From positions 4,659,752 through 4,723,751 of the forward strand of contig NC_005085.1 in NCBI RefSeq assembly GCF_000007705.1: DNA of 64,000 nt, written 5' to 3'. This DNA is from Chromobacterium violaceum ATCC 12472 (GTDB lineage Bacteria > Pseudomonadota > Gammaproteobacteria > Burkholderiales > Chromobacteriaceae). Position numbers and translations under genes: made by a program. Shown here piece by piece: positions 1-14,851 of the stretch; position 1 is the stretch's first letter; every line of letters begins with the position of its first letter. The notes under the pieces were generated by a model. It saw only the letters and a list, made by a program, of their open reading frames with translations, did not search any database and was not told where the DNA came from.

Positions 1-1908
1 GTCGCCGTGCTGCCGGCGCCGAGCGACGCGCTGCCGCGGCTGATGGCCGACGCCGACGGCGTGTCCGCCTGGGGCGGCGACGCCGCGCTGTCCGCGATCC
101 GCGCGCGGCTGCCGGCCGGCTGCCGCTGGATAGACTGGGGCCATCGCGTCAGCTTCGCCTATCTCGACCCCGCCGCCGCCGCGGACGAGGCGCTGGACGC
201 GCTGGCCGACGACATCTGCCGCTTCGACCAGCAAGCCTGCTCCAGCCCGCAGGCGCTGCTGGTGGACAGCGACGATCCGGCCGCGATCCACGAGATGGCG
301 CGCCGGCTGGCCGCCGCGCTCGCCCGCCGCGCGCCGTTGTGGCCGGCGCTGACGCCGGACCTGCAGGAAGCCGCCGAGATCAGCGCCCGCATGGCCTTCC
401 ACAAGCTGGACCAGGCTTTCGCCGACGATCAGGGCCAGGTGCTGTCCGGCCAGGGCTGGCGGCTGGCCTGGAGCATGGAACAGGAACTGGCGCCGTCGCC
501 GCTGTTCCGCACCGTGGAGCTGCGGCCGGCCCCGCGCGCGGCGCTGGCCCGCATCCTGCGCCCCTGGCGCACCCACCTGCAAAGCTGCGGCCTGATCGCG
601 CCGCCGGCGCGCTTGCCGGAGCTGAGCCGCATGCTGCTGGCCGCCGGCGTCAGCCGCGTCGCGCCGGCCGGCCGCATGCACGACGGCTACCACGGCGAGC
701 CGCACGACGGCGTCTACGCGCTGCAGCGGCTGTCGCGCCGGGTATCGGTGAGCCTGGACGCCGCCGCGCTGCCCGGCCACGCCCACCTGGACGCGCCGCC
801 GGCCGCGCCCGCGGGCCTGGCCGCGCTGCCGGTGATGGACAAGGCCGCCTTCCAGAGCCAGGCCGCCAGCGACAAGGCGCAGCTGTTCTTCCGCAGCGGC
901 GGCAGCAGCGGCGCGCCCAAGCTGGCCGGCTTCAGCTACCGCGACTACCACCGCCAGATGCGCGCCGCCGCCGACGGCCTGCTGGCCGCCGGCCTCAACC
1001 CGGCCACCGACCGCGCGATGAACCTGCTCTACGGCGGCAAGCTGTACGGCGGCATGCTCAGCTTCTTCACCATCCTGGACCACATGGGCGTCGCGCAGTA
1101 CCCGATGGGCGGCCCGTCCGACGACGACTTCGCCGAGATCGCCCACTTCATCGTCGAGCAGCAGATCAACACCCTGATCGGCATGCCGGGCACGCTGCAC
1201 AGGCTGTTCGAGCGCGAGAACAAGGTGCTGCGCCGCTACGGCGGCGTGCGCAAGGTGTTCTGCGGCGGCGAGCACATCAGCGACGGCCAGCGCGCCTACA
1301 TCGGCAGCTTCGGCGTGGAGCTGATCCGTTCGGCGATGTACGGCTCGGTGGACGCCGGCCCGCTGGGCCACGCCTGCCCGCACTGCGCCGACGGCGAATT
1401 CCACCTGCTGGCCGAAACCCAGTGGCTGGAGGTGCTGGACATGGACAGCGACCTGCCGGCGGCGCGCGGCGCCGTCGGCCGCCTGGTGTTCACCTCGCGC
1501 GAGCGCGAGGCGCAGCGGGTAGAGCGCTACGACCTGGGCGACCTGGGCCAGTGGCTGGACGGCGGCTGCGCCTGCGGCCTGGCCGCGCCGCGTTTCCGCC
1601 TGACCGGCCGCCACGGCGCGCTGCTGCGGGTGGGCACCATCTTCGTCAATCCGGCCGCGCTGAGCGAGAAGATCGGCCTGCCCATGCAGTGGCTGGTCGA
1701 CCACGCCGACAGCGGCGGCGACCGCATCCGGCTGCTGGCCGACGGCGACCCGTGGGCGATACGCGGCCGCCTGCTGGAGGAGCCGATGCTGAATGAGGTG
1801 GTCGGCGGCGGCCTGCTGCAACTGGAAGTGGCCGCCACCCCGGCCGCCGAATTCCGCCGCCATCCGCACAGCGGCAAGACCCCGCTGGTGCTGGACCTGA
1901 GACGATGA
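1..1908 (+). CDS. LuxC-type acyl-CoA reductase fused to LuxE/PaaK-type adenylating domain (5' partial)
   Basis: The frame is open to the left edge, so the start lies outside the window. The first ~250 visible residues match the C-terminal half of LuxC acyl reductases (PF05893): a WGGDAA motif and a QQACSSPQ motif whose Cys (codon 238-240) aligns with the LuxC acyl-thioester nucleophile. In LuxC about 200 residues precede this Cys, so roughly that much is missing. The remaining ~350 residues are a PaaK/LuxE-like adenylate-forming domain with the phosphate-binding motif SGGSSGAPK (about 894-920), a YGSVDAGPLG segment, and CPHC and CACG cysteine pairs. It ends in HPHSGK. LuxE activates a fatty acid and LuxC reduces the acyl-thioester to aldehyde, so a fused enzyme could turn an acid directly into an aldehyde. 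The substrate is unknown, and no luxAB is in view. Confidence 0.8.
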   Translation, partial: VAVLPAPSDALPRLMADADGVSAWGGDAALSAIRARLPAGCRWIDWGHRVSFAYLDPAAAADEALDALADDICRFDQQACSSPQALLVDSDDPAAIHEMARRLAAALARRAPLWPALTPDLQEAAEISARMAFHKLDQAFADDQGQVLSGQGWRLAWSMEQELAPSPLFRTVELRPAPRAALARILRPWRTHLQSCGLIAPPARLPELSRMLLAAGVSRVAPAGRMHDGYHGEPHDGVYALQRLSRRVSVSLDAAALPGHAHLDAPPAAPAGLAALPVMDKAAFQSQAASDKAQLFFRSGGSSGAPKLAGFSYRDYHRQMRAAADGLLAAGLNPATDRAMNLLYGGKLYGGMLSFFTILDHMGVAQYPMGGPSDDDFAEIAHFIVEQQINTLIGMPGTLHRLFERENKVLRRYGGVRKVFCGGEHISDGQRAYIGSFGVELIRSAMYGSVDAGPLGHACPHCADGEFHLLAETQWLEVLDMDSDLPAARGAVGRLVFTSREREAQRVERYDLGDLGQWLDGGCACGLAAPRFRLTGRHGALLRVGTIFVNPAALSEKIGLPMQWLVDHADSGGDRIRLLADGDPWAIRGRLLEEPMLNEVVGGGLLQLEVAATPAAEFRRHPHSGKTPLVLDLRR

Positions 1909-1914
1909 AACCCG

Positions 1915-1934
1915 GCCGGCGCCGCGGCGCCGGC
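1915..1934. repeat. Perfect 20-bp palindrome between the first two genes
   Basis: GCCGGCGCC and GGCGCCGGC flank a central GC, 6 bp after the stop codon of the fusion gene and 16 bp before the ATG of the next gene. In RNA this gives a very stable hairpin. No T-run follows, so it is not a standard terminator. It may set relative expression or protect the upstream message. Confidence 0.6.
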
Positions 1935-1950
1935 ATGTACACACATAATC

Positions 1951-3213
1951 ATGAATCCGAAACTGATATCGCTGGTCGAACACGCCCGCAACCATTCGCC
2001 GCACTACAACGCGCTTTACCACGGCTTGCCCGCCGAAGGCTGGCGGCTGTCCGACCTGCCCCCGGTCGATCCCGCCGCCTACTGGCGGGATTCGCAGGAC
2101 CTGTCGCGCTGGCCGGCGCTGACCGCCGCCCCCGAGGACGGCCACGTGTTCAAAACCGGCGGCTCTACCGGCGACGGCAAGCTGTCGGTGTTCAGCCGCG
2201 CGGAATGGCAGGCCTTCGTCGCCGCCTTCGGCGCCGGCCTGGCGCGCCAGCTGCGCCCAGGCGACCGCGTCGCCAACCTGTTCTTCGCCGGCGATCTCTA
2301 CACCAGCCTGCTGTTCATCCACGGCGCGCTGTCGCATGCGCCGGTGCCGGTGCTGGAATTCCCGTTCACCTGCAATGTCGACAACGACGCGCTCGCCGGG
2401 GCGATTAGCCGCCACCGGATCAACGTGCTGGCCGGCGTGCCGGCGCAGCTGCTGCGCTTCGCCCATTACCTGGAGGCGCGCGCGCAGGCGCTGGCCGAGG
2501 TGGAAACCGTGCTTTACGGCGGCGAAAGCCTGTTCGGCGAACAGATCGCGCTGCTGAAGCAGGTGTTCCCGCTGGCCCGCGTCGGATCGGTCGGCTGCGC
2601 CAGCGTGGACGCCGGCCTGATCGGCTACGCCGACCCGGACTGCGCGCATGGCGAGCACCGGGTGTTCGATGAGGACAGCGTGGTCGAGATCGTCGACGAG
2701 GACAGCGGCGAGCCGATAGACGAGCCCGGCCGGCGCGGCCTGCTGCTGGTGACCAACCTGCAGCGCCGGCTGATGCCGGTGATACGCTATCCCAGCGGCG
2801 ACCTGGCCTGCTGGCGCGAGCCGCCCGGCCCCAACCGCAAGTTCGCGCTGCAGGGCCGGGCCGGCAACGGCCACCGCGTGCGCGTCGGCACGCTGTCGCT
2901 GTTTCCGGAGGAGCTGGGCCGCGCGCTGGGCGAGCCGCACGAGCTGCTGGGCTGGCAGCTGGATATTTCGCGCGAGGGCGGCCGGGACCGGCTGGAGCTG
3001 CTGCTGGCGGCGCGCGCGCCGCTGGACCTGGAGAAGATGCGGCAAGCCCTGCTGGCCGGCCAGCCGGCGATCGCCGAGCTGTGCGAGACGGCGCGGCTGA
3101 GCCTGGCGCTGACGCAAACCACGCCGGAAGCGATGCGCACCCATCCCCGCTCCGGCAAGCTGCTGCGGGTGGTGGACCGGCGCGACTACCAGCCGGCGGA
3201 GGCGACGGCATGA
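1951..3213 (+). CDS. Stand-alone PaaK/LuxE-like adenylate-forming enzyme
   Basis: The 420-residue protein resembles phenylacetate-CoA ligase and LuxE acyl-protein synthetase. It has a P-loop-like FKTGGSTGDGK motif near residues 67-77, a YGGES segment, a VGCASVDAGLIGY segment and an IRYPSGDL motif like the conserved RYxxGD of adenylating enzymes. The C-terminus HPRSGK parallels the HPHSGK end of the upstream fusion, so the two are probably paralogues with different acid specificity or a split activation/transfer role. No Shine-Dalgarno sequence is obvious before ATG 1951. A strong hairpin sits there instead, so translation may be coupled or leader-dependent. The stop overlaps the next start by 4 bp. 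The substrate cannot be read from sequence. Confidence 0.8.
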   Translation: MNPKLISLVEHARNHSPHYNALYHGLPAEGWRLSDLPPVDPAAYWRDSQDLSRWPALTAAPEDGHVFKTGGSTGDGKLSVFSRAEWQAFVAAFGAGLARQLRPGDRVANLFFAGDLYTSLLFIHGALSHAPVPVLEFPFTCNVDNDALAGAISRHRINVLAGVPAQLLRFAHYLEARAQALAEVETVLYGGESLFGEQIALLKQVFPLARVGSVGCASVDAGLIGYADPDCAHGEHRVFDEDSVVEIVDEDSGEPIDEPGRRGLLLVTNLQRRLMPVIRYPSGDLACWREPPGPNRKFALQGRAGNGHRVRVGTLSLFPEELGRALGEPHELLGWQLDISREGGRDRLELLLAARAPLDLEKMRQALLAGQPAIAELCETARLSLALTQTTPEAMRTHPRSGKLLRVVDRRDYQPAEATA

Positions 3214-4133
3214 GCGCCCGCCATCCGCACGCGGCCTGGGCGCGCGACTACCAACCGTCCGACGCCGCCGACATCAGCGCGCTGTTCCGCGCCGTCTACG
3301 GCGACCACTACGTCTACGCCGACGTCTACCTGCCGAGCCAGATCCAGCAGCGCAACGCCAGCGGACAATGGCGCTCGGCGGTGGCGGTGCGCGACGGCCG
3401 GCTGCTGGGCCACGCGACGCTGTGGCTGGACCCGGCGCGTCCGGGCCAAGCCGAGCTGGCGCTGAACGCAGTGCACCCGGACGCCCGCGGCCAGGGCATC
3501 GCCAGCCTGCTGGGCCGGCACCTGCGCGCGGCGGCCGCCGACCTCGGCATCCCGCTGTTGACCATCAAGCAGGTGTGCTCGCATCCGCAAAGCCAGTACG
3601 TGGCGCGCGCGCTGGGCTTTCACAACACCGCGCTGCTGCTGGACTACGTCGACTCGCCGTTCGGCAAGCCGGAGCCGGAAAGCATCGTGTTCGGCTGCCT
3701 GCCGCTGAAGCCCCGGCCGCTGCCGAAACTGGCGTGGCCGCCGGAGTGGGAGGCATGGCTGGCGCCGCTGCGCCTGGCATTCGGAGAAAAAGAAGGCTCG
3801 CCGGCCAGCCTCGGCCTGCCCGGCCTGGCGCTGGCGCGCCACGGCCAGCGGCTGGAACTGGCCGCGCAGCAGCCCACCGAGGCGCGTCTGGCCGAGATCG
3901 CCGCGCTGCCGGCCGGCCAGCTGATCTATCTGAAACTGCCGGCCGCGGCGGAAACGCTGGCGCGGCGACGCCAGCTGGAAAGCGCCGGCTTCCGTTTCGG
4001 CGGCCTGTTGCCGGCGGCAAGCGGCGGCTGGCAGCTGCTATGGCTGCGCGGCCTGTCGGGGCAGGACATCCGCTTCTGCGACGAGCAGGCCGAACGGCTG
4101 TACCGATTGGGGCGAAACCCGCAAAGCGCTTGA
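3210..4133 (+). CDS. GNAT-family acetyltransferase with C-terminal second lobe
   Basis: I chose ATG 3210, which overlaps the upstream stop as ATGA, giving 307 residues; a longer in-frame start inside the previous gene is unlikely. Residues ~10-150 form a GNAT domain with the acetyl-CoA loop in HPDARGQGIASLLGRHL and a typical ALGFHNTALLLDYV beta-bulge region. Residues ~170-300 (LIYLKLPAAAETLARR, then SAGFRFGGLLP) resemble the degenerate second GNAT-like lobe seen in some bacterial acetyltransferases. It is the third gene of the LuxC/LuxE operon, so it may acylate an amine intermediate or product of that pathway (inference). A short GC hairpin without a T-run follows at about 4156-4171. Confidence 0.75.
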   Translation: MSARHPHAAWARDYQPSDAADISALFRAVYGDHYVYADVYLPSQIQQRNASGQWRSAVAVRDGRLLGHATLWLDPARPGQAELALNAVHPDARGQGIASLLGRHLRAAAADLGIPLLTIKQVCSHPQSQYVARALGFHNTALLLDYVDSPFGKPEPESIVFGCLPLKPRPLPKLAWPPEWEAWLAPLRLAFGEKEGSPASLGLPGLALARHGQRLELAAQQPTEARLAEIAALPAGQLIYLKLPAAAETLARRRQLESAGFRFGGLLPAASGGWQLLWLRGLSGQDIRFCDEQAERLYRLGRNPQSA

Positions 4134-4578: not shown

Positions 4579-5307
4579 TCAGGCGGCGGCCAGCTCGCGT
4601 CCGGCGCGCAAGGCGCCGCCGTCCAGCACCGGCACGCAGGCGCTGATGTTCAGCTGCGCGGCCAGCACGATGTCGTCCGGAAAGCCGCGCGCCACCAACT
4701 CTCCGCCCGATGCCGTGAACTGCAGCTGGCGCTCGAGATCGTGGCGGGCCAGCTCGAACGCCGTTTCGGCCGCCAGCGCTTCCGGCGACTTGCTGCCGCT
4801 CAGGCGCTGGATGATGGCGCCGGCGCCGATGAAGTCCTCGTAGGCGAAACGCAGGCAGCCATCGGCGCCCAGCTCGCCGGCGGCAACCAGCAACACCTCG
4901 CCGCCCGCCGTTTCAAGATAGTCGGCCACCGCCGCCGCGTTGCGCAAGCAAGCCACGATCGTGCTGGCCGACTCGCTGGCCAGGCTCAACGCCGCGCCGT
5001 TCTGCGAAGGCAGCACCAGCCGGCTGCCCGCCTTCAGGCCGCACAGCGAAGCCGGCGACAGAGAAGGCTGCTTGTGGCTGCGCTCGGCCGCCAGCACCGC
5101 CTGCTGCTCGCTGGCGAAATCGGCGGCGCCGGCCGCCTTGAAGCGGTACGGCAACACCTCGGCGCCGTTGCCGCAGACGATGTCGACGCTGGTGCCGAAG
5201 GACAGCACGTCGACGATCACGCAATGGGCCGCCTGCGCGCTCAAATGCTGTACCGCCGGCAGCCCCCATTGCAGACGCACGGAATATTCCTGTTGCGCGT
5301 AATGCAT
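4579..5307 (-). CDS. ComB-like (2-phosphosulfolactate phosphatase family) protein
   Basis: I chose ATG 5307 (242 residues, GGGATGTGGG upstream) over a TTG 33 bp further out. The protein matches the ComB/PF04029 fold: an IVDVLSFGTSVDIVCGNGA start, a LVLPSQNGAALSL motif, an ACLRNAAAVADYL motif and a FAYEDFIGAGAII motif. The archaeal enzyme dephosphorylates 2-phosphosulfolactate in coenzyme M synthesis. Betaproteobacteria do not make coenzyme M, and no sulfolactate genes are nearby, so the true substrate is uncertain. Two perfect inverted repeats lie 77-123 bp upstream (5384-5430). Confidence 0.75.
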   Translation of the reverse strand: MHYAQQEYSVRLQWGLPAVQHLSAQAAHCVIVDVLSFGTSVDIVCGNGAEVLPYRFKAAGAADFASEQQAVLAAERSHKQPSLSPASLCGLKAGSRLVLPSQNGAALSLASESASTIVACLRNAAAVADYLETAGGEVLLVAAGELGADGCLRFAYEDFIGAGAIIQRLSGSKSPEALAAETAFELARHDLERQLQFTASGGELVARGFPDDIVLAAQLNISACVPVLDGGALRAGRELAAA

Positions 5308-5383
5308 CCCACATCCCCGACCAATATGGAACACCGCCAACGGCTTGCGCCGAAGGCGGTGTCTCCATTGATTCTTCGATACC

Positions 5384-8092: not shown

Positions 8093-9007
8093 TCAGCGGT
8101 CTTTCGGGTCCAGCGCGTCGCGCAGGCCGTCGCCGATGTAGTTGGCGCAATAAAGCGTCAGCGACAGCATGCCGGCCGGGAACAGCAGAATCCACGGCGA
8201 GGTTTCCATCACGCCGGCGCCGTCCTGGATCAGCACGCCCCAGCTGGTCATCGGCTCCTGCACGCCTAGGCCGAGGAAGGACAGCACCGACTCGGTCAGG
8301 ATCACGCCCGGCACCGTCACCGTGGTGTAGATCACCACGATGCCCAGCAGATTGGGGACGATGTGGCGGAAGATGATGGTGGGCGTGGACACGCCGATCG
8401 CGTGGGCAGCCTCCACATACTCCTTGGACTTGATCGCCAGGGTCTGGCCGCGCACCACCCGCGCCATGTCCATCCAGGAGAACACGGTGATGGTCAGCAC
8501 CACCAGGTAGAACTCGCGGCCCAGCAGCGTCACCATCAGGATGGCGATCAGCAGGTAGGGCACCGCGTACATCATGTCGACGATGCGCATCATCAGCGCG
8601 TCCACCTTGCCGCCGAGGAAGCCGGAAGTCGCGCCCCACACCACGCCCAGGATGACGGAAGCCACGGTGGCCAGCGCCCCCACCATCAGCGAAATGCGTC
8701 CGCCGACCAGGCAGCGCACCAGCAGGTCGCGGCCCGAGGCGTCGGTGCCGAACCAGTGCATGCCGGCCAGGGCCGGAGCCTGGCTGATCGCATCCCAGTC
8801 CGCGTCTTCATAGCTGTACGGCAGGACCATGGGTCCGAAAATACAGGCCAGCGTGATCAGCGTCAGCACCACCAGGCTGAACACGGCAGCCTTGTTGCGC
8901 AGGAAGCGGATGCGCGCGTCGCGCCACGGGCTGCGGCCTTCCACCGCGGCCTCGGCCAGGCCATTCTCGATTGCCGCCACGGCGGCGGCTTGCTTGCTCT
9001 TGATCAT
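8093..9007 (-). CDS. oppC: Oligopeptide ABC transporter permease OppC
   Basis: The 304-residue inner-membrane permease has a cytoplasmic N-terminus (ARIRFLRNKAAVFSLVVL), then about six membrane segments. The EAA loop is seen in EAAHAIGVSTPTIIFRHIVPN, which contacts the ATPases. A periplasmic segment with HWFGTDASGRDLL is the OppC/DppC hallmark. It pairs with OppB as the translocation channel. Spacing is 12 bp to oppB and 23 bp to oppD, consistent with one transcript. Confidence 0.95.
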   Translation of the reverse strand: MIKSKQAAAVAAIENGLAEAAVEGRSPWRDARIRFLRNKAAVFSLVVLTLITLACIFGPMVLPYSYEDADWDAISQAPALAGMHWFGTDASGRDLLVRCLVGGRISLMVGALATVASVILGVVWGATSGFLGGKVDALMMRIVDMMYAVPYLLIAILMVTLLGREFYLVVLTITVFSWMDMARVVRGQTLAIKSKEYVEAAHAIGVSTPTIIFRHIVPNLLGIVVIYTTVTVPGVILTESVLSFLGLGVQEPMTSWGVLIQDGAGVMETSPWILLFPAGMLSLTLYCANYIGDGLRDALDPKDR

Positions 9008-9019
9008 TTCCCCGCCTCC

Positions 9020-9940
9020 TCAATAGCGGATCTTGGGGTCGAGCACGGCGTAAGCCAGGTCGACGAGGAGGTTGAACACCACGGTGATCACCGTCACCAG
9101 CACCACCAGGCCCAGCACCAGCGTGTAATCGCGGTTGGACGCGCCGTTGACGATCAGCTTGCCCAGGCCCGGCAGCGAGAAGATCGACTCGGTCACCACG
9201 GCGGAGGTGATGGACGAGATCGCCAGCGGCCCCAGCAGCGTCACCACCGGCATCAGGGCCGGCTTCAGCGCGTGGCGCAGCACGATGACGCGCAGCGGCA
9301 GGCCCTTGGCGCGGGCGGTGCGGATGAAGTTGCTGTTCAGCACCTCGATCAGGCTGCCGCGCATCACGCGGCCTATCGTGGAGATGTTGATGAACACCAG
9401 CAGCATGATCGGCAGCACCATGAACTTGGGCGCGAAGTGGTTCCAGCCGCCGGCCGGCAGCCACTTCAGCGTCACGGCGAAAATCAGCACCAACACCGGC
9501 CCCAGGATGAAGGACGGGAAGGCGCCGCCGATATTGCCGAGAAACATCACGAAATAGTCGACCATGCTGTTCTGGCGCAGCGCGGCGGTGATGCCGAGCG
9601 CGACGCCGATGAACAGCGAGATCAGGATGGCGCTGCCGCCTATGGTGGCGGAAACCGGCAAGGCGCTGGCCACCAGATCGTTGACGCTCCAGTCCGCGTA
9701 GCGGAACGAGGCGCCCAGATCGCCGTGCAGCAGGCTATTCAGGTAATACAGGTATTGCTGCCACAGCGGCAGATCCAGATGATACTTGGCCTGCAGATTG
9801 GCCAGCACCGCCTCGGAGACCTTGCGTTCTCCGTCGAACGGGCCGCCCGGGGTCATGTGCAGCAGCAGATAGCAAACGGTGATGACGGCCAGCAGCGTCG
9901 GAATCGCCGCCAGGATGCGTCGGAAAGTGTAGGACCACAT
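9020..9940 (-). CDS. oppB: Oligopeptide ABC transporter permease OppB
   Basis: The 306-residue inner-membrane permease begins MWSYTFRRILAAIPTLLAV, a typical OppB/DppB start, and carries an MTPGGPFD periplasmic motif. The EAA-type loop is RTARAKGLPLRVIVLRHALKPALMP and the C-terminus is DPKIRY. GGAG lies 8 bp before the ATG. It forms the channel with OppC. A 134-bp gap with two strong hairpins separates it from oppA, a usual arrangement for making far more binding protein than permease. Confidence 0.95.
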   Translation of the reverse strand: MWSYTFRRILAAIPTLLAVITVCYLLLHMTPGGPFDGERKVSEAVLANLQAKYHLDLPLWQQYLYYLNSLLHGDLGASFRYADWSVNDLVASALPVSATIGGSAILISLFIGVALGITAALRQNSMVDYFVMFLGNIGGAFPSFILGPVLVLIFAVTLKWLPAGGWNHFAPKFMVLPIMLLVFINISTIGRVMRGSLIEVLNSNFIRTARAKGLPLRVIVLRHALKPALMPVVTLLGPLAISSITSAVVTESIFSLPGLGKLIVNGASNRDYTLVLGLVVLVTVITVVFNLLVDLAYAVLDPKIRY

Positions 9941-10002
9941 GGTGTAACTCCGTATGGCCGGGCGGATGCCTCGCGCACCGCGGCCCAGCCCCTACATCAC
10001 AA

Positions 10003-10032
10003 GCCGGATGGCCGCTCGCGCGGACATCCGGC
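10003..10032 (-). repeat. Hairpin between oppA and oppB (1)
   Basis: GCCGGATG (10003-10010) pairs with CATCCGGC (10025-10032). After one mismatch, CCGC pairs with GCGG around a TCGC loop. No T-run follows on the coding strand. Its place after a binding-protein gene suggests an mRNA-stabilising or partially terminating stem. Confidence 0.6.
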
Positions 10033-10041
10033 CTCGGTTGC

Positions 10042-10059
10042 CGCCGGCGTCAGCCGGCG
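10042..10059 (-). repeat. Hairpin between oppA and oppB (2)
   Basis: CGCCGG and CCGGCG flank CGTCAG, 16-33 bp past the oppA stop. Together with the adjacent larger hairpin it forms a tandem stem structure in the oppA-oppB gap. Confidence 0.5.
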
Positions 10060-10074
10060 TCTCGCTTGGCACGC

Positions 10075-11688
10075 TCAGTGCTGGATGATGTACAGGTCCT
10101 TGCTGCGATAGCGGTCCAGCGGGTTCTGGCCCACGCCGCCGACATAGGACTTGATCAGGCGCGGCGCCGTGTACTGCAGCAGCGGCAGCATCGGATAGTC
10201 GTCCATGATCATCTTGACGGCCTGGGTGAACAGCTGCTTGCGCTTGCCGGCATCGGTCGCCTGGTTGCCCTGCTTGATCAGCTCTTGGGCCTTCGGGTTG
10301 CAGTTCTGGTTGTCGTTCTGGGTGTTGCCGCACTCGACCAGCGCCAGGAAGGTGGTGGCGTCGTTGTAGTCGGCGTTCCAGCCGTTGCGGGCGATCTGGT
10401 AATCGCCGTCATGGCGCTTCTTCAGCAGCACCTTGAACTCGAGGCTTTCCAGTTCGGTGTTCAGGCCCAGCTTGGATTTCCACTCGGAAGCGGCGAAGAT
10501 CGCCATCTTCTTATGGTAGTCGTTGGTGTTGTAGGTGAACTTGATCTTGGTGCCCGGCTTCACGCCGGCCTGGGCCAGCAGCTTCTTGGCCTCGTCCACG
10601 CGCTTGGCCATCGGCCATTTCGCCCAGTCGTAAGTGGACGGATCGGCGCCGGACACGCCGTGCACCATCACGCTGTAGGCCGGGTTCTGGCCGTCGGCGG
10701 TCACTTTCTTGGCCAGGATGTCGCGGTCGATCGCCATGGACAGCGCCTTGCGCACGCGCACGTCTTTCAGCAGCGCATCCTTGTTGTTGAACGAGTAGTA
10801 GCGCAGCGCGGCCAGCTCGCCGTTGCGGATTTCCTTCGGATACTGCGCCTTGTACTTGTCGAAGGAGCCCGGCGGCAGGTTCAGCACCCAGTCGTTCTGG
10901 CCGGATTCATACAACTTCACGTCGGCGTTGGAGTCTTCGATCGGCAGGTAGGTGGTCTGGTTCAGCACCACGCTCTTGGCGTCCCAGTAGTTGGCGTTCT
11001 TGGCGACCACCACCTTGCTGTTCACCTGCCAGTCTTTCAGCATGTAGGCGCCGTTGCTGATCATCTTGCCCGGCTTCACCCAATCCTTGCCGTATTTGTC
11101 GATGGTGGCCTTGGGCGCGGGGGCGAACTGGGTATTGGCCACCAGGGCCGGCAGGAACAGCACCGGGTACGGGGTCTTCACTTCCAGCGTGTACTTGTCC
11201 AGCGCCTTGACGCCGAGTTCGGCCGGCTTCTTCTTGCCGGTGGCGATTTCCTTGCCGTTCAGGATGAAGATGCCGTAGGTCTCGGAGTACGGGGACGCGG
11301 TTTTCGGATCGAGGAAACGCTGCCAGCCGTAAACGAATTCATCGGCGGTCACCGGATGGCCGTCGGACCATTTCGCGTTCTTGCGCAGGTGGAATACCCA
11401 GGTGGTGGCGTCGGTCTGCTTCCAGGACTCCGCCACGCCGGGCACGATCTTGCCGTTGTTGTCGGCGGCGGTCAGGCCCTCGAACAGGTCTGCGGTAATG
11501 GTATTGGCCGGCACCGACTCGGCGACGGCCGGATCCAGGGTTTCCGGCTCGGACCCGGTATTGCGGACCAGTTCCTGCTTGGCGGCCAGCTTGGTGCCGG
11601 CCGGCACCTTGGCGGCCAGCGCGGATCCGGAAGCCATGGCCAGCGCGACGGCGGCGGCGATCACCTGCAGCGATTGCGTGTTCGACAT
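10075..11688 (-). CDS. oppA: Periplasmic oligopeptide-binding protein OppA
   Basis: The 537-residue SBP family 5 protein has a cleavable signal peptide: MSNTQSLQ, a hydrophobic stretch and ALA before AKVPAG. There is no lipobox, so it should be soluble in the periplasm. The family signature lies in GSEPETLDPAVAES and the WVFHLRKNAKWSDGHPVTADEF segment, and the peptide-pocket region GADPSTYDWAKWPM follows later. It delivers peptides to OppBCDF. AGGAG lies 8 bp before the ATG. It is the first gene of the operon; a TACAAT -10-like hexamer occurs at 11751-11756 (minus strand) without a convincing -35. Confidence 0.95.
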   Translation of the reverse strand: MSNTQSLQVIAAAVALAMASGSALAAKVPAGTKLAAKQELVRNTGSEPETLDPAVAESVPANTITADLFEGLTAADNNGKIVPGVAESWKQTDATTWVFHLRKNAKWSDGHPVTADEFVYGWQRFLDPKTASPYSETYGIFILNGKEIATGKKKPAELGVKALDKYTLEVKTPYPVLFLPALVANTQFAPAPKATIDKYGKDWVKPGKMISNGAYMLKDWQVNSKVVVAKNANYWDAKSVVLNQTTYLPIEDSNADVKLYESGQNDWVLNLPPGSFDKYKAQYPKEIRNGELAALRYYSFNNKDALLKDVRVRKALSMAIDRDILAKKVTADGQNPAYSVMVHGVSGADPSTYDWAKWPMAKRVDEAKKLLAQAGVKPGTKIKFTYNTNDYHKKMAIFAASEWKSKLGLNTELESLEFKVLLKKRHDGDYQIARNGWNADYNDATTFLALVECGNTQNDNQNCNPKAQELIKQGNQATDAGKRKQLFTQAVKMIMDDYPMLPLLQYTAPRLIKSYVGGVGQNPLDRYRSKDLYIIQH

Positions 11689-12061
11689 CTCTAATTCTCC
11701 TGATTCTGTAGCATCCCGCGCCCGGCGGGTTGTTCGAATTTTTTCACTCTATTGTATCCAGAGTGGGTTCGACGATTATGCGCAGAGGGTTTTGATTCCA
11801 TCAAGCCCCTATGGGCACAATATGCTATTCATTTTTCTCAAAAAGGAAAATCTGTCAGACAATAGTCAAGCAAGACAAATCAACGGCCTGTCCATCTCCA
11901 TCGATTTATACTGATGGCATCCACCCATGTAAAATGCTATTGCCTGGCCCAAGCAAAATTCATCAAAGTCCGAAGCGTTTCCCGCCACGCCGCCAGATAA
12001 ATAATCATCCCCTTCTGCACAAGAAAAGCTTGCCCGCCAAGCTTGAAGCCACACGGCGCTA
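11689..12061. other. AT-rich intergenic region upstream of oppA
   Basis: About 370 bp with no supported gene. From about 11740 to 12060 it is clearly more AT-rich than the surrounding DNA. It must contain the oppA promoter (candidate -10 TACAAT, minus strand, 11751-11756) and a small leader hairpin CCCGC/GCGGG at 11715-11729. Short ORFs on both strands lack ribosome-binding sites and recognisable products. Confidence 0.6.
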
Positions 12062-12093
12062 AAAATGAAAAAGCCGCCTCAAACGGCGGCTTT
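12062..12093 (-). terminator. Terminator of pyrC
   Basis: AAAGCCGCC and GGCGGCTTT pair around TCAAAC. On the minus strand this is followed by TTTTTCATTTTT, 17 bp after the pyrC stop. It is a standard intrinsic terminator and may also work weakly on the plus strand. Confidence 0.85.
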
Positions 12094-12109
12094 CCGATCT
12101 CATGCGGAG

Positions 12110-13144
12110 TCAGCGCCGCAGACGCCAGGCGACGCTGTCGCCGGCGCGCAGCGGCACCAGGCTGTCGCCGGGATAAGGCAGCTCGGCCGGCACCGTCCAA
12201 CTCTCCTTGACCAGCTCGATGCGGTCGCCGTTGGCCGGCAAGCCGTAGAAAGCCGGGCCGTTCAGGCTGGCGAAAGCCTCCAGCTTGTCCAGCGCGCCGG
12301 CGGCCTCGAAAGCCTCGGCGTAGAGCTCGATCGCCGCGTTGGCGGTGTACATGCCGGCGCAGCCGCAAGCCGCCTCCTTGGCGCCCTTCGCGTGCGGCGC
12401 GCTGTCGGTGCCGAGAAAGAACTTGGCCGAGCCCGACGTCGCCGCCTTCACCAGCGCCTGGCGGTGCAGCTCGCGCTTGAGCACCGGCAGACAGTAGTGG
12501 TGCGGGCGGATGCCGCCGACAAACAGCGCGTTGCGGTTCATCAGCAGGTGATGGGCGGTGATGGTGGCGGCGACGTTGGCCGGCGCGGCGGCGACGAACT
12601 CGGCCGCCTCTCGGGTGGTGATGTGCTCGAACACCACCTTCAGTTGCGGCAGCTTGGCCAGCAAGGGCTTCATCACCCGCTCGATGAACACCGCCTCGCG
12701 GTCGAACACGTCGATGTCGGCGTCGGTGACTTCGCCGTGCACCAAGAGCGGCATGCCGGCTTCGGCCATCGCCTCCAGCGCCGGCATCGCGTGGGCGATA
12801 TCGGTGACGCCGTGGTCGGAATTGGTGGTGGCGCCGGCCGGGTACAGCTTGACGCCGTGGACGAAGCCGCAGGCCTTGGCCTTGCGGATTTCGTCGGCGC
12901 TGGTTTTATCGGTCAGATAAAGCGTCATCAGCGGCTCGAAGGCGCTGCCGGCCGGGCGCGCGGCCAGAATGCGCTCGCGGTAGGCGGCGGCGGCGGCCAC
13001 GGTGGTGACCGGCGGCTTCAGGTTGGGCATGACGATGGCGCGGCCCATCTGGCGACAGGTGTCGGGCAGCACCGCGGCCAGCGCGGCGTCGTCGCGCAGG
13101 TGCAAATGCCAGTCGTCGGGGCGGATCAGGGTGAGAGTCTGCAT
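12110..13144 (-). CDS. pyrC: Dihydroorotase
   Basis: I chose ATG 13144 ([19 protein letters not shown]) over an upstream in-frame start; this gives 344 residues, normal for class II PyrC. The metal-binding HLH motif is at residues 13-15, and the Lys that is carboxylated to bridge the two zincs is in GVKLYPAG (K99). Further His ligands lie in LVHGE and FEHITT, and the catalytic Asp is in GTDSAPH. It interconverts carbamoyl-aspartate and dihydroorotate in pyrimidine synthesis. It lies 63 bp downstream of a TusA-like gene on the same strand and ends at an intrinsic terminator. Confidence 0.96.
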
Positions 13145-13207
13145 GGTGGATGGCTTGCCGTAACGATGGATAAAACAATGGCGATGGAAAGCCATCGCCA
13201 GGAATGT

Positions 13208-13438
13208 CTACTTGCGCCGGAGCACCATCCGGAACTTGCCTTCGCCGGTGGTGGTCGATTCCAGCAGGCCGTTGCCGGTCTGGCGGCAGAAAGCTTCGAA
13301 GTCCTTGGGCGCGCCCGGGTCGGTGGCGATCACCTCCAGCACGGCGCCGCTGTCCATGTCGGCCAGCGCCTTCTTGGCGCGCAGTATCGGCAGCGGGCAG
13401 TTCAGGCCGGAAAGATCAATATGCTTGTCGGGGGTCAT
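13208..13438 (-). CDS. TusA-like sulfurtransferase family protein
   Basis: I chose ATG 13438, giving 76 residues, a normal TusA/YeeD length. The hallmark LSGLNCPLPILRAKKAL contains the CPLP motif with the reactive Cys at residue 14. Family members carry persulfide sulfur for tRNA thiolation, molybdenum cofactor maturation or sulfur oxidation. The sequence alone does not show whether this is TusA or a paralogue. It is immediately upstream of pyrC and divergent from the NRDE-family gene. Confidence 0.85.
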   Translation of the reverse strand: MTPDKHIDLSGLNCPLPILRAKKALADMDSGAVLEVIATDPGAPKDFEAFCRQTGNGLLESTTTGEGKFRMVLRRK

Positions 13439-13565
13439 GGGCCGGGTATCCTTCAGCCATATCGGGTTACAATGAATCACATGGCGGCCGGCCGCGCAAA
13501 CCGGCGGGCCGCAGCCGTATAGTTTACGCCAGTCGTCAAGCCTTACCCAAATCGGTCACCGCAAT

Positions 13566-14330
13566 ATGTGCATCATCGCTTTCGCTTACAAAACGCCGGG
13601 CATGGGCCAGCTGGTACTCTTGGCCAACCGCGACGAATACTACGCCCGCCCCGCCGAGCCGCTGGACTGGTGGCCGGAATTCCCCAACACCCTGGGCGGC
13701 CGCGACCAGCAATCCGGCGGCAGCTGGCTGATGGTGGACGGGCGCAATCGCATCGCCGCCGTCACCAACTTCCGCGACGGTTTCCCGCCCAAGGCGGAGC
13801 GCTCGCGCGGCGAGCTGGTGCGGCGCTTCGTCACCGGCGACGACGACCCGTTCGCCTTCGCCGACTGGCTGCGCGAGGAATGCCACCGCTACGCGCCGTT
13901 CAACCTGCTGTTCGGCACCACCTCGGACCTGTTCTTCTTCCACAGCCCCGGCCGGCAGATCGCGCGCGTGACGCCCGGCATCCACACGCTGTCCAACGCC
14001 ACGCTGGACACGCCGTGGTTCAAGAGCCAGCGGCTGGCGGAATACCTGGGCGAGTTCGGCCGGCCGCCGACCGAGGAGCAGGCCTACGCCGCGCTGTCCG
14101 ACCCGACGCCGGCCGGCCCCGGCCACCTGCCCAATACCCGCATCGGCCTGGCGCTGGAAAAGACGCTGTCGCCGATCTTCATCCAGGGCCGCGACTACGG
14201 CACCCGCGCGTCGATGCTGCTGACGGTGTCCAGCCGCGGCGACATCGGCTTTTCCGAACTGAGCTGGGGCCTGGCCGGACGCGAGACCGGCCGCCGCCAC
14301 TACAACCTGCGCGCCGGCCAGGCGCGCTGA
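13566..14330 (+). CDS. NRDE (TANGO2-like) family protein
   Basis: The 254-residue protein starts MCIIAF, with Cys2 in the position of a possible N-terminal nucleophile, and has the family motif NRDE at residues 21-24. A PSGGSWL-like segment (GGSWLMVDGRNRIAAVTNFRD) and FNLLFG follow, and ends with strands matching PF05742. Bacterial and eukaryotic TANGO2 proteins are linked to haem or acyl-lipid handling, but the reaction is unsettled. It is followed 14 bp later by the CNP1-like gene and is divergent from the TusA-like gene. Confidence 0.85.
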   Translation: MCIIAFAYKTPGMGQLVLLANRDEYYARPAEPLDWWPEFPNTLGGRDQQSGGSWLMVDGRNRIAAVTNFRDGFPPKAERSRGELVRRFVTGDDDPFAFADWLREECHRYAPFNLLFGTTSDLFFFHSPGRQIARVTPGIHTLSNATLDTPWFKSQRLAEYLGEFGRPPTEEQAYAALSDPTPAGPGHLPNTRIGLALEKTLSPIFIQGRDYGTRASMLLTVSSRGDIGFSELSWGLAGRETGRRHYNLRAGQAR

Positions 14331-14344
14331 CGGAGCATCCGCAT

Positions 14345-14851
14345 TTGAAAGCCATCGCAACCCTGCCGGCGCTGCTGGCGCTGTGCCTGAGCCTGCCCGC
14401 TCTGGCCGGCAACGACAGGATCAACAAGAACATCGAATTCGAGGAAGAACAGCCGTGGACCGAGCAGGACTACGCGCTGCCCGATTACCCGCAGACGCCG
14501 GACTGGATAGAAGTGAAGCCGGACTGGCTGCAGCAAAACCGCTTCTTCGTCGACGCCAGGACGCTGAGCGTGGCCGGCGACGGCGTGGTGCGCTTCGTCA
14601 GCCGGGTGCTGACGCCCGGCGGCGTGGAGAACCTCAGCGTCGAAGGCATCCAATGCAAGGCGAACCAGTACAAGGCCTACGGCTTCGGCGACAGCGTCAA
14701 CCACCGCTGGATCGCGGCGATGCGGCCGCAATGGCAGGCGATCAACAGCACCGACAAGCTCAGGCGGGAGCTGCGCGAGCTGATGTGCCCGTCGCATGGC
14801 GCGCCGCGCGACGCGGCCCAGGCGATCGCCTCTTTGCGCGGCGCGCGCTGA
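14345..14851 (+). CDS. CNP1-like family secreted protein
   Basis: I chose TTG 14345 because GGAG lies 9 bp upstream and the next ~22 residues form a clean signal peptide (KAIATLPALLALCLSLPALAG). This gives 168 residues. The mature part has an acidic start (EFEEEQPW), a KPDWLQQNRFFVDARTLSV strand and a VEGIQCKANQYKAYGFGD segment, matching the CNP1-like family (PF08750) of uncharacterised betaproteobacterial proteins. Two Cys (IQCK and LMCP) could form a disulfide in the periplasm. It probably shares a transcript with the NRDE gene. Confidence 0.8.
   Translation: MKAIATLPALLALCLSLPALAGNDRINKNIEFEEEQPWTEQDYALPDYPQTPDWIEVKPDWLQQNRFFVDARTLSVAGDGVVRFVSRVLTPGGVENLSVEGIQCKANQYKAYGFGDSVNHRWIAAMRPQWQAINSTDKLRRELRELMCPSHGAPRDAAQAIASLRGAR

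Follow-up and report, generated by a model that had tools for sequence, protein, structure and literature searches.

The window analysed here is a 64,000-nucleotide stretch of the chromosome of Chromobacterium violaceum ATCC 12472 (positions 4659752-4723751 of 4,751,080 bases, single contig), and its left flank was read from the same contig. Five genes on one strand lie at its left edge, encoding an MdfA-like transporter of the major facilitator superfamily (MFS), a LuxE-type enzyme (leupA), a fusion of a LuxC domain and a PaaK-like ligase (leupB), a separate PaaK-like ligase (leupC) and a GNAT acyltransferase (leupD). Judged by its sequence, this gene set is orthologous to the published leupABCD operon, the leupeptin route of Xenorhabdus, Photorhabdus and Klebsiella that does not use a nonribosomal peptide synthetase (NRPS). 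We regard it as very probably a five-gene leup operon whose product is an N-acyl peptide argininal of the leupeptin type; acetyl-Leu-Leu-argininal, together with close analogues, is the likeliest candidate.

Genes and proteins of the operon

The left edge of the window cuts leupB, the second of the four biosynthetic genes (Table 1). An earlier note on this stretch had described three genes there, namely the incomplete fusion, a second adenylating enzyme and an acetyltransferase. All three are real, since their reading frames are open and match protein families. The note had also proposed to look to the left for the rest of the LuxC domain and for any partner genes, and both were found, as the domain is complete and a LuxE-family gene and an MdfA-like MFS gene lie upstream. 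The 4-bp coupling that it attributed to the three genes holds for leupC and leupD, which overlap in ATGA, but not for leupB and leupC, which are 42 bp apart; the MFS gene and leupA are separated by 29 bp, and leupA and leupB by 1 bp.

The LuxC profile PF05893 matched the first 582 residues of LeupB with an E-value of 5e-151 over profile positions 2-401 of 401, placing the domain at residues 31-413; the part of LeupB inside the window alone gave 9.7e-101. The QQACSSPQ motif, taken as the nucleophile site in the earlier note, is present, and its Cys246 is in register with the DQQAC cysteine of LuxC in PDB 7xc6 chain A. The last ~370 residues form a PaaK-like ligase with profile matches to the PaaK structures 9s3l and 4r1l. 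This ligase domain is 34% identical to LeupC, and both end in HPxSGK, as the note had stated. LeupB has this fused form in all 94 rows compared, a count that is not independent because the rows were retrieved via the fusion itself. Cys246 and Lys792 are present in every one of these rows.

Residues 24-371 of LeupA align with the LuxE chain of the same structure (7xc6_E), with the C-terminal cysteine on cysteine, and this Cys365 is found in 93 of the 94 rows, the remaining row having a gap. Lys403 of LeupC is kept in 94/94 rows. The MFS protein scored 340.3 bits against the MdfA-subfamily cut-off of 439. For LeupD, the AlphaFold model (mean pLDDT 90.3) has the strand and helix series of a GNAT lobe at residues 10-165 and, after it, a shorter alpha/beta portion at 178-302, according to a reading of its secondary structure. 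The two-lobed acetyltransferase of the earlier note is partly supported by the model, while Pfam (PF00583) covers the first part only; LeupD resembles MshD, a two-lobed protein, no more than weakly (E 1.3e-4).

Table 1. Position and supporting evidence of the leup operon features in C. violaceum ATCC 12472
Feature	Position	Strand or situation	Evidence
MFS gene, MdfA-like	genome 4656836-4658092	outside window, left	profile match
leupA, LuxE family, 376 aa	genome 4658122-4659252	outside window, left	PF04443, E 1.5e-26
leupB, 801 aa; C-terminal 635 codons inside window	window 1-1908; start at genome 4659254, 498 bases left of window base 1	+	PF05893
Cys246 codon, LuxC-domain nucleophile (QQACSSPQ)	window 238-240	+	alignment with PDB 7xc6 chain A
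PaaK-like adenylating domain of LeupB (RSGGSSGAPK motif)	window 790-1905	+	profile matches to PaaK structures
Lys792 codon, C-terminal lysine of LeupB	window 1876-1878	+	conserved 94/94
leupC, stand-alone PaaK-like ligase, 420 aa	window 1951-3213	+	PF00501, E 2.3e-8
Lys403 codon, C-terminal lysine of LeupC	window 3157-3159	+	conserved 94/94
leupD, GNAT N-acyltransferase, 307 aa	window 3210-4133	+	PF00583, E 3.5e-10

Correspondence with published leup operons and distribution

The passages of PMC8283571 on the Klebsiella leup cluster give its layout as a transporter plus leupABCD, its position as 315,353-321,183 (5,831 bp), and a primer pair for leupA and leupB that yields a 1,235-bp product. 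These primers match the Klebsiella michiganensis DSM 25444 locus (L103) with zero mismatches, at 8924-8944 and 10139-10158, one falling within the LuxE-like gene and the other within the fusion; end to end the pair spans 1,235 bp, the published size. From leupA to leupD the genes of this locus occupy 8872-14699, or 5,828 bp. In the available portions of PMC11480411, the K. oxytoca leup operon is linked to leupeptin, a lysine analogue and leupeptin-derived pyrazinones, and the Xenorhabdus and Photorhabdus operons to a homoarginine form. An excerpt of PMC11212599, citing Li et al. 2020, describes leupeptin of X. bovienii SS-2004 as made by a non-NRPS route with separate AMP-dependent ligases and a reductase.

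LeupB of C. violaceum is 63.2% identical to that of X. bovienii T228, 64.1% to those of Photorhabdus (mean of seven) and 53.9% to that of K. michiganensis, the latter being 52.7% identical to X. bovienii. Across LeupA to LeupC, C. violaceum and K. michiganensis are 52-70% identical. A maximum-likelihood LeupB tree was built with 52 of the 94 rows, 30 Pseudomonas and 12 Xenorhabdus rows having been left out beforehand. It joined Chromobacterium, Xenorhabdus and Photorhabdus in one clade with support of 100/100, with Klebsiella outside, and placed the C. haemolyticum type as sister to Photorhabdus plus X. bovienii (100/99). By tree position, identities and kept residues, the C. violaceum operon sits between experimentally linked operons. 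A 20-row ligase tree set the LeupB-domain rows and the LeupC rows, actinomycete sequences included, on opposite sides, the support for this being modest (86/67 and 81/90); the divergence of the two ligases thus probably predates the split between the actinomycete and proteobacterial forms.

The fusion (E <= 1e-30) was found in 14/19 Chromobacterium genomes, in none of 42 other genomes of its family, and in two of 398 genomes sampled across the phylum, the C. violaceum genome included. The LuxE-like LeupA (E <= 1e-80) was found in 5/300 genomes sampled from the order, again counting the genome itself. A relative is encoded by 143 stretches in named genomes, the best 80 of which were retrieved; these come from Chromobacterium, Photorhabdus, Xenorhabdus, many Pseudomonas, Rugamonas, Iodobacter, Parachitinimonas, Klebsiella michiganensis, Erwinia, Pantoea, one Burkholderia multivorans and two enterobacterial metagenome-assembled genomes. 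Among viral contigs one stretch matched the search pattern and none encoded a relative, and the E. coli genomes gave no near match to the Klebsiella operon.

Gene order was compared in 96 loci, which after removal of three duplicate contigs and three actinomycete sets left 90 proteobacterial loci; the contig-end loci L038 and L039 and those of the order survey were set aside. All 90 have leupA, leupB, leupC and leupD in this order on one strand, although the presence of the fusion is not independent in loci found through it. An MFS gene lies directly upstream of leupA in 59/90, and 27 of the 31 loci lacking it belong to Photorhabdus or Xenorhabdus, where some contigs end ~1 kb or less upstream. 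The genes flanking the block vary by genus while the block does not, indicating that the block is the unit.

Several observations concern individual loci and their surroundings. The leup block of Burkholderia multivorans WS-FJ9 (L041:707-7398) branches within Chromobacterium in the LeupB tree, which suggests a recent transfer or a mixed assembly. Within Chromobacterium there are two leup lineages, the C. haemolyticum type (L033-L036) and the remainder (L026-L032). The former is sister to the Photorhabdus type in the LeupB tree, from which L035 was omitted as a duplicate of L042, and has no YbjQ, PF04029 or DUF3224 neighbours within the 12 kb fetched. Just downstream of the C. violaceum operon, on the minus strand at window 4579-5340, is a PF04029 gene (2-phosphosulpholactate phosphatase, ComB-like), with a homologue beside the operon in 8 of the 13 Chromobacterium loci compared; we take PF04029 to be a coenzyme M synthesis family, which makes it an odd neighbour. 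A search of the C. violaceum operon locus (L005) for the CviR quorum-sensing box gave no signal, with 22 matches at up to two mismatches against 20.8 expected. The promoter scan of locus L006 gave one site, on the opposite strand, against 0.2 expected, and four terminators against 3.3 expected, and was not used as evidence.

Predicted product and alternative readings

To make leupeptin, an N-acylation, the formation of two peptide bonds and a single reduction are needed. The operon encodes one GNAT protein, two PaaK-like ligases and one LuxE/LuxC pair, a set that matches these needs, so the simplest assignment is one domain per step. LeupD would acetylate leucine with acetyl-CoA. LeupC and the C-terminal ligase domain of LeupB would work through acyl-adenylates and between them account for the two peptide bonds, with no carrier proteins. 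LeupA would then adenylate the finished tripeptide acid and bind it in thioester linkage to Cys365, which corresponds to the acyl-carrying cysteine of LuxE, and the LuxC domain of LeupB would accept the acyl group on Cys246 and reduce it with NADPH to the aldehyde, an argininal, which the MFS protein would export. In this scheme the exact C. violaceum product, the allocation of ligases to bonds, the order of the steps and the cargo of the exporter are what we infer. The chemistry guessed in the earlier note (activation of acids, reduction of one of them to an aldehyde and acylation of an amine) was right in kind.

Several points weigh against assigning the C. violaceum operon to leupeptin. LeupD is the least conserved of the proteins, being only 41.0% identical between C. 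violaceum and K. michiganensis and 45.1% between C. violaceum and X. bovienii, and this divergence means that a different acyl group may be used. Only 50/94 rows keep Lys473, the lysine of the RSGGSSGAPK motif in the LeupB ligase domain. The tree program flagged six rows, that of C. violaceum included, as deviating in amino-acid composition, and warned of one long branch (L081). The published primer leupA_f starts with atg, yet it lies 52 bases into the predicted leupA and out of frame, so that it indicates the location of the gene rather than where translation starts. The X. bovienii and K. michiganensis rows compared come from strains other than those in the cited papers, and the Klebsiella operon is described, in the published excerpts, as silent in usual culture, with N-acetylneuraminic acid as its reported elicitor.

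The divergence of LeupD also speaks for the strongest alternative, in which the operon is a relative of leup whose product is a different peptide aldehyde (differing in the N-acyl group or the C-terminal residue, or being a dipeptide) or a derived pyrazinone. The products reported in PMC11480411, as far as its available portions go, vary by genus, with the lysine analogue in K. oxytoca, the homoarginine form in Xenorhabdus and Photorhabdus, and pyrazinones. However, Chromobacterium branches among known producers and the catalytic residues are kept, and we consider a different product rather unlikely, although this alternative overlaps at its edge with the leupeptin-type assignment.

The homology of LeupA and LeupB to LuxE and LuxC could instead point to a fatty-aldehyde system resembling lux, with the LuxE/LuxC pair acting on a fatty acid and the ligases and GNAT protein leading to a fatty amide. 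This is very improbable. The lux equivalog cut-offs are far from reached (71.3 of 550 bits for LuxE; 60.8 of 750 bits for LuxC, using 582 residues), and the orthologous operons make leupeptins according to the excerpts of PMC11480411 and PMC11212599. Pfam scans of the five operon proteins listed no luciferase family, the rest of the genome not having been searched for one. A phenylacetate-CoA ligase of the PaaK type was rejected, TIGR02155 giving 39.2 bits for LeupB (41.2 for the domain alone) and 37.9 for LeupC against a cut-off of 646.3. The earlier view that the cluster belongs neither to lux nor to phenylacetate catabolism is in line with these scores. A role in glycan decoration, by analogy with the Aeromonas flagellin glycosylation islands that contain luxC, luxE, an AMP-dependent synthetase and an acyl carrier protein (PMC7874193, in part), is hardly credible, as Pfam found no carrier protein or glycosyltransferase among the five block genes and the block stays the same from genus to genus although its flanks do not.

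With the leupeptin-type assignment retained, the proposal of a new pathway in the earlier note is not supported: the observation was real and the enzyme set is unusual, but the system is known, and Chromobacterium is a newly recorded host so far as can be seen from the literature searched. Titles and the starts of abstracts in the literature naming both Chromobacterium and leupeptin gave no pointer to production, and no leup cluster is named in the portions available of a Chromobacterium genome-mining paper (PMC5906607) or among the papers listed by a wider literature search. The assignment puts a name to the likely product class of the Chromobacterium operon, a leupeptin-class serine/cysteine protease inhibitor. 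It also extends leup operons to Betaproteobacteria (Chromobacterium, Rugamonas, Iodobacter and Parachitinimonas), beyond the gammaproteobacterial genera of the cited papers in their available portions. With one domain per reaction, the formation of a peptide aldehyde via LuxE/LuxC chemistry becomes directly testable enzymology.

Plasmid copies and comparison with known systems

LeupB-like proteins were found on plasmids in six records, two each from Salmonella enterica, Streptantibioticus cattleyicolor and Streptomyces; the two S. cattleyicolor records resemble two versions of one plasmid. The S. enterica plasmid examined (L133:5969-12132) is typed as conjugative and IncF, and carries leupABCD; upstream of these genes only a 121-aa remnant of the MFS protein is left, and recombinase genes lie close by. 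Three actinomycete megaplasmid sets (L134:4554-11917, L135:4317-12007 and L136:4155-11596) have the order ligase, MFS, GNAT, LuxE and LuxC fusion, which is annotated for L136 and was derived from tblastn and frame reading for L134 and L135. Identities in these sets average 56% for LeupA and 42% for LeupB. The Chromobacterium MFS gave no match to the MFS genes of the actinomycete operons (tblastn, E 1e-4), and the matches of the actinomycete GNAT proteins to the LeupD profile were weak (E-values of 1e-9, 6e-7 and 0.002 among 450 frames) and might equally arise from GNAT similarity in general. Adjoining the L136 set are three genes with an I36 peptidase inhibitor annotation.

Leupeptin-type compounds of Streptomyces are treated as NRPS products in the available parts of PMC10548850 and PMC11212599, and the rearranged leup-like sets on actinomycete megaplasmids are worth testing given that view. 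It is conceivable, though doubtful, that the leup genes form a peptide-aldehyde assembly line that is old, portable and free of carrier proteins and spans Proteobacteria and Actinomycetes, and that at least part of the classical actinomycete leupeptin may be made in this way, without NRPS.

Among known systems, the Streptomyces NRPS peptide aldehydes of the antipain type and the livipeptin of S. lividans share the product class, being arginal-type protease inhibitors (PMC10548850 and PMC11212599, as excerpted). The Streptomyces systems use NRPS modules, and livipeptin a tRNA-utilizing enzyme with an NRPS-like protein, whereas nothing of this kind is among the five C. violaceum proteins, for which Pfam scans listed no carrier or condensation domains. 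The LuxC-LuxE fatty acid reductase (PDB 7xc6) likewise pairs a LuxE-type enzyme with a LuxC-type thioester reductase, and the catalytic cysteines align; unlike it, the C. violaceum LuxC bears an extra fused ligase, and its substrate would be a peptide acid. The leupABCD operon of Klebsiella michiganensis/oxytoca has the same four genes in the same order with an adjacent MFS transporter, and the published primers match the K. michiganensis locus exactly; it differs from that of C. violaceum in the flanking genes, by reading of their translations, and in LeupD, which is only 41% identical. The Photorhabdus and Xenorhabdus loci have no MFS homologue directly upstream of leupA (27/27, a few contigs ending ~1 kb upstream), unlike C. 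violaceum, but the leup operons of Xenorhabdus bovienii and Photorhabdus are the closest experimentally linked relatives of the C. violaceum operon.

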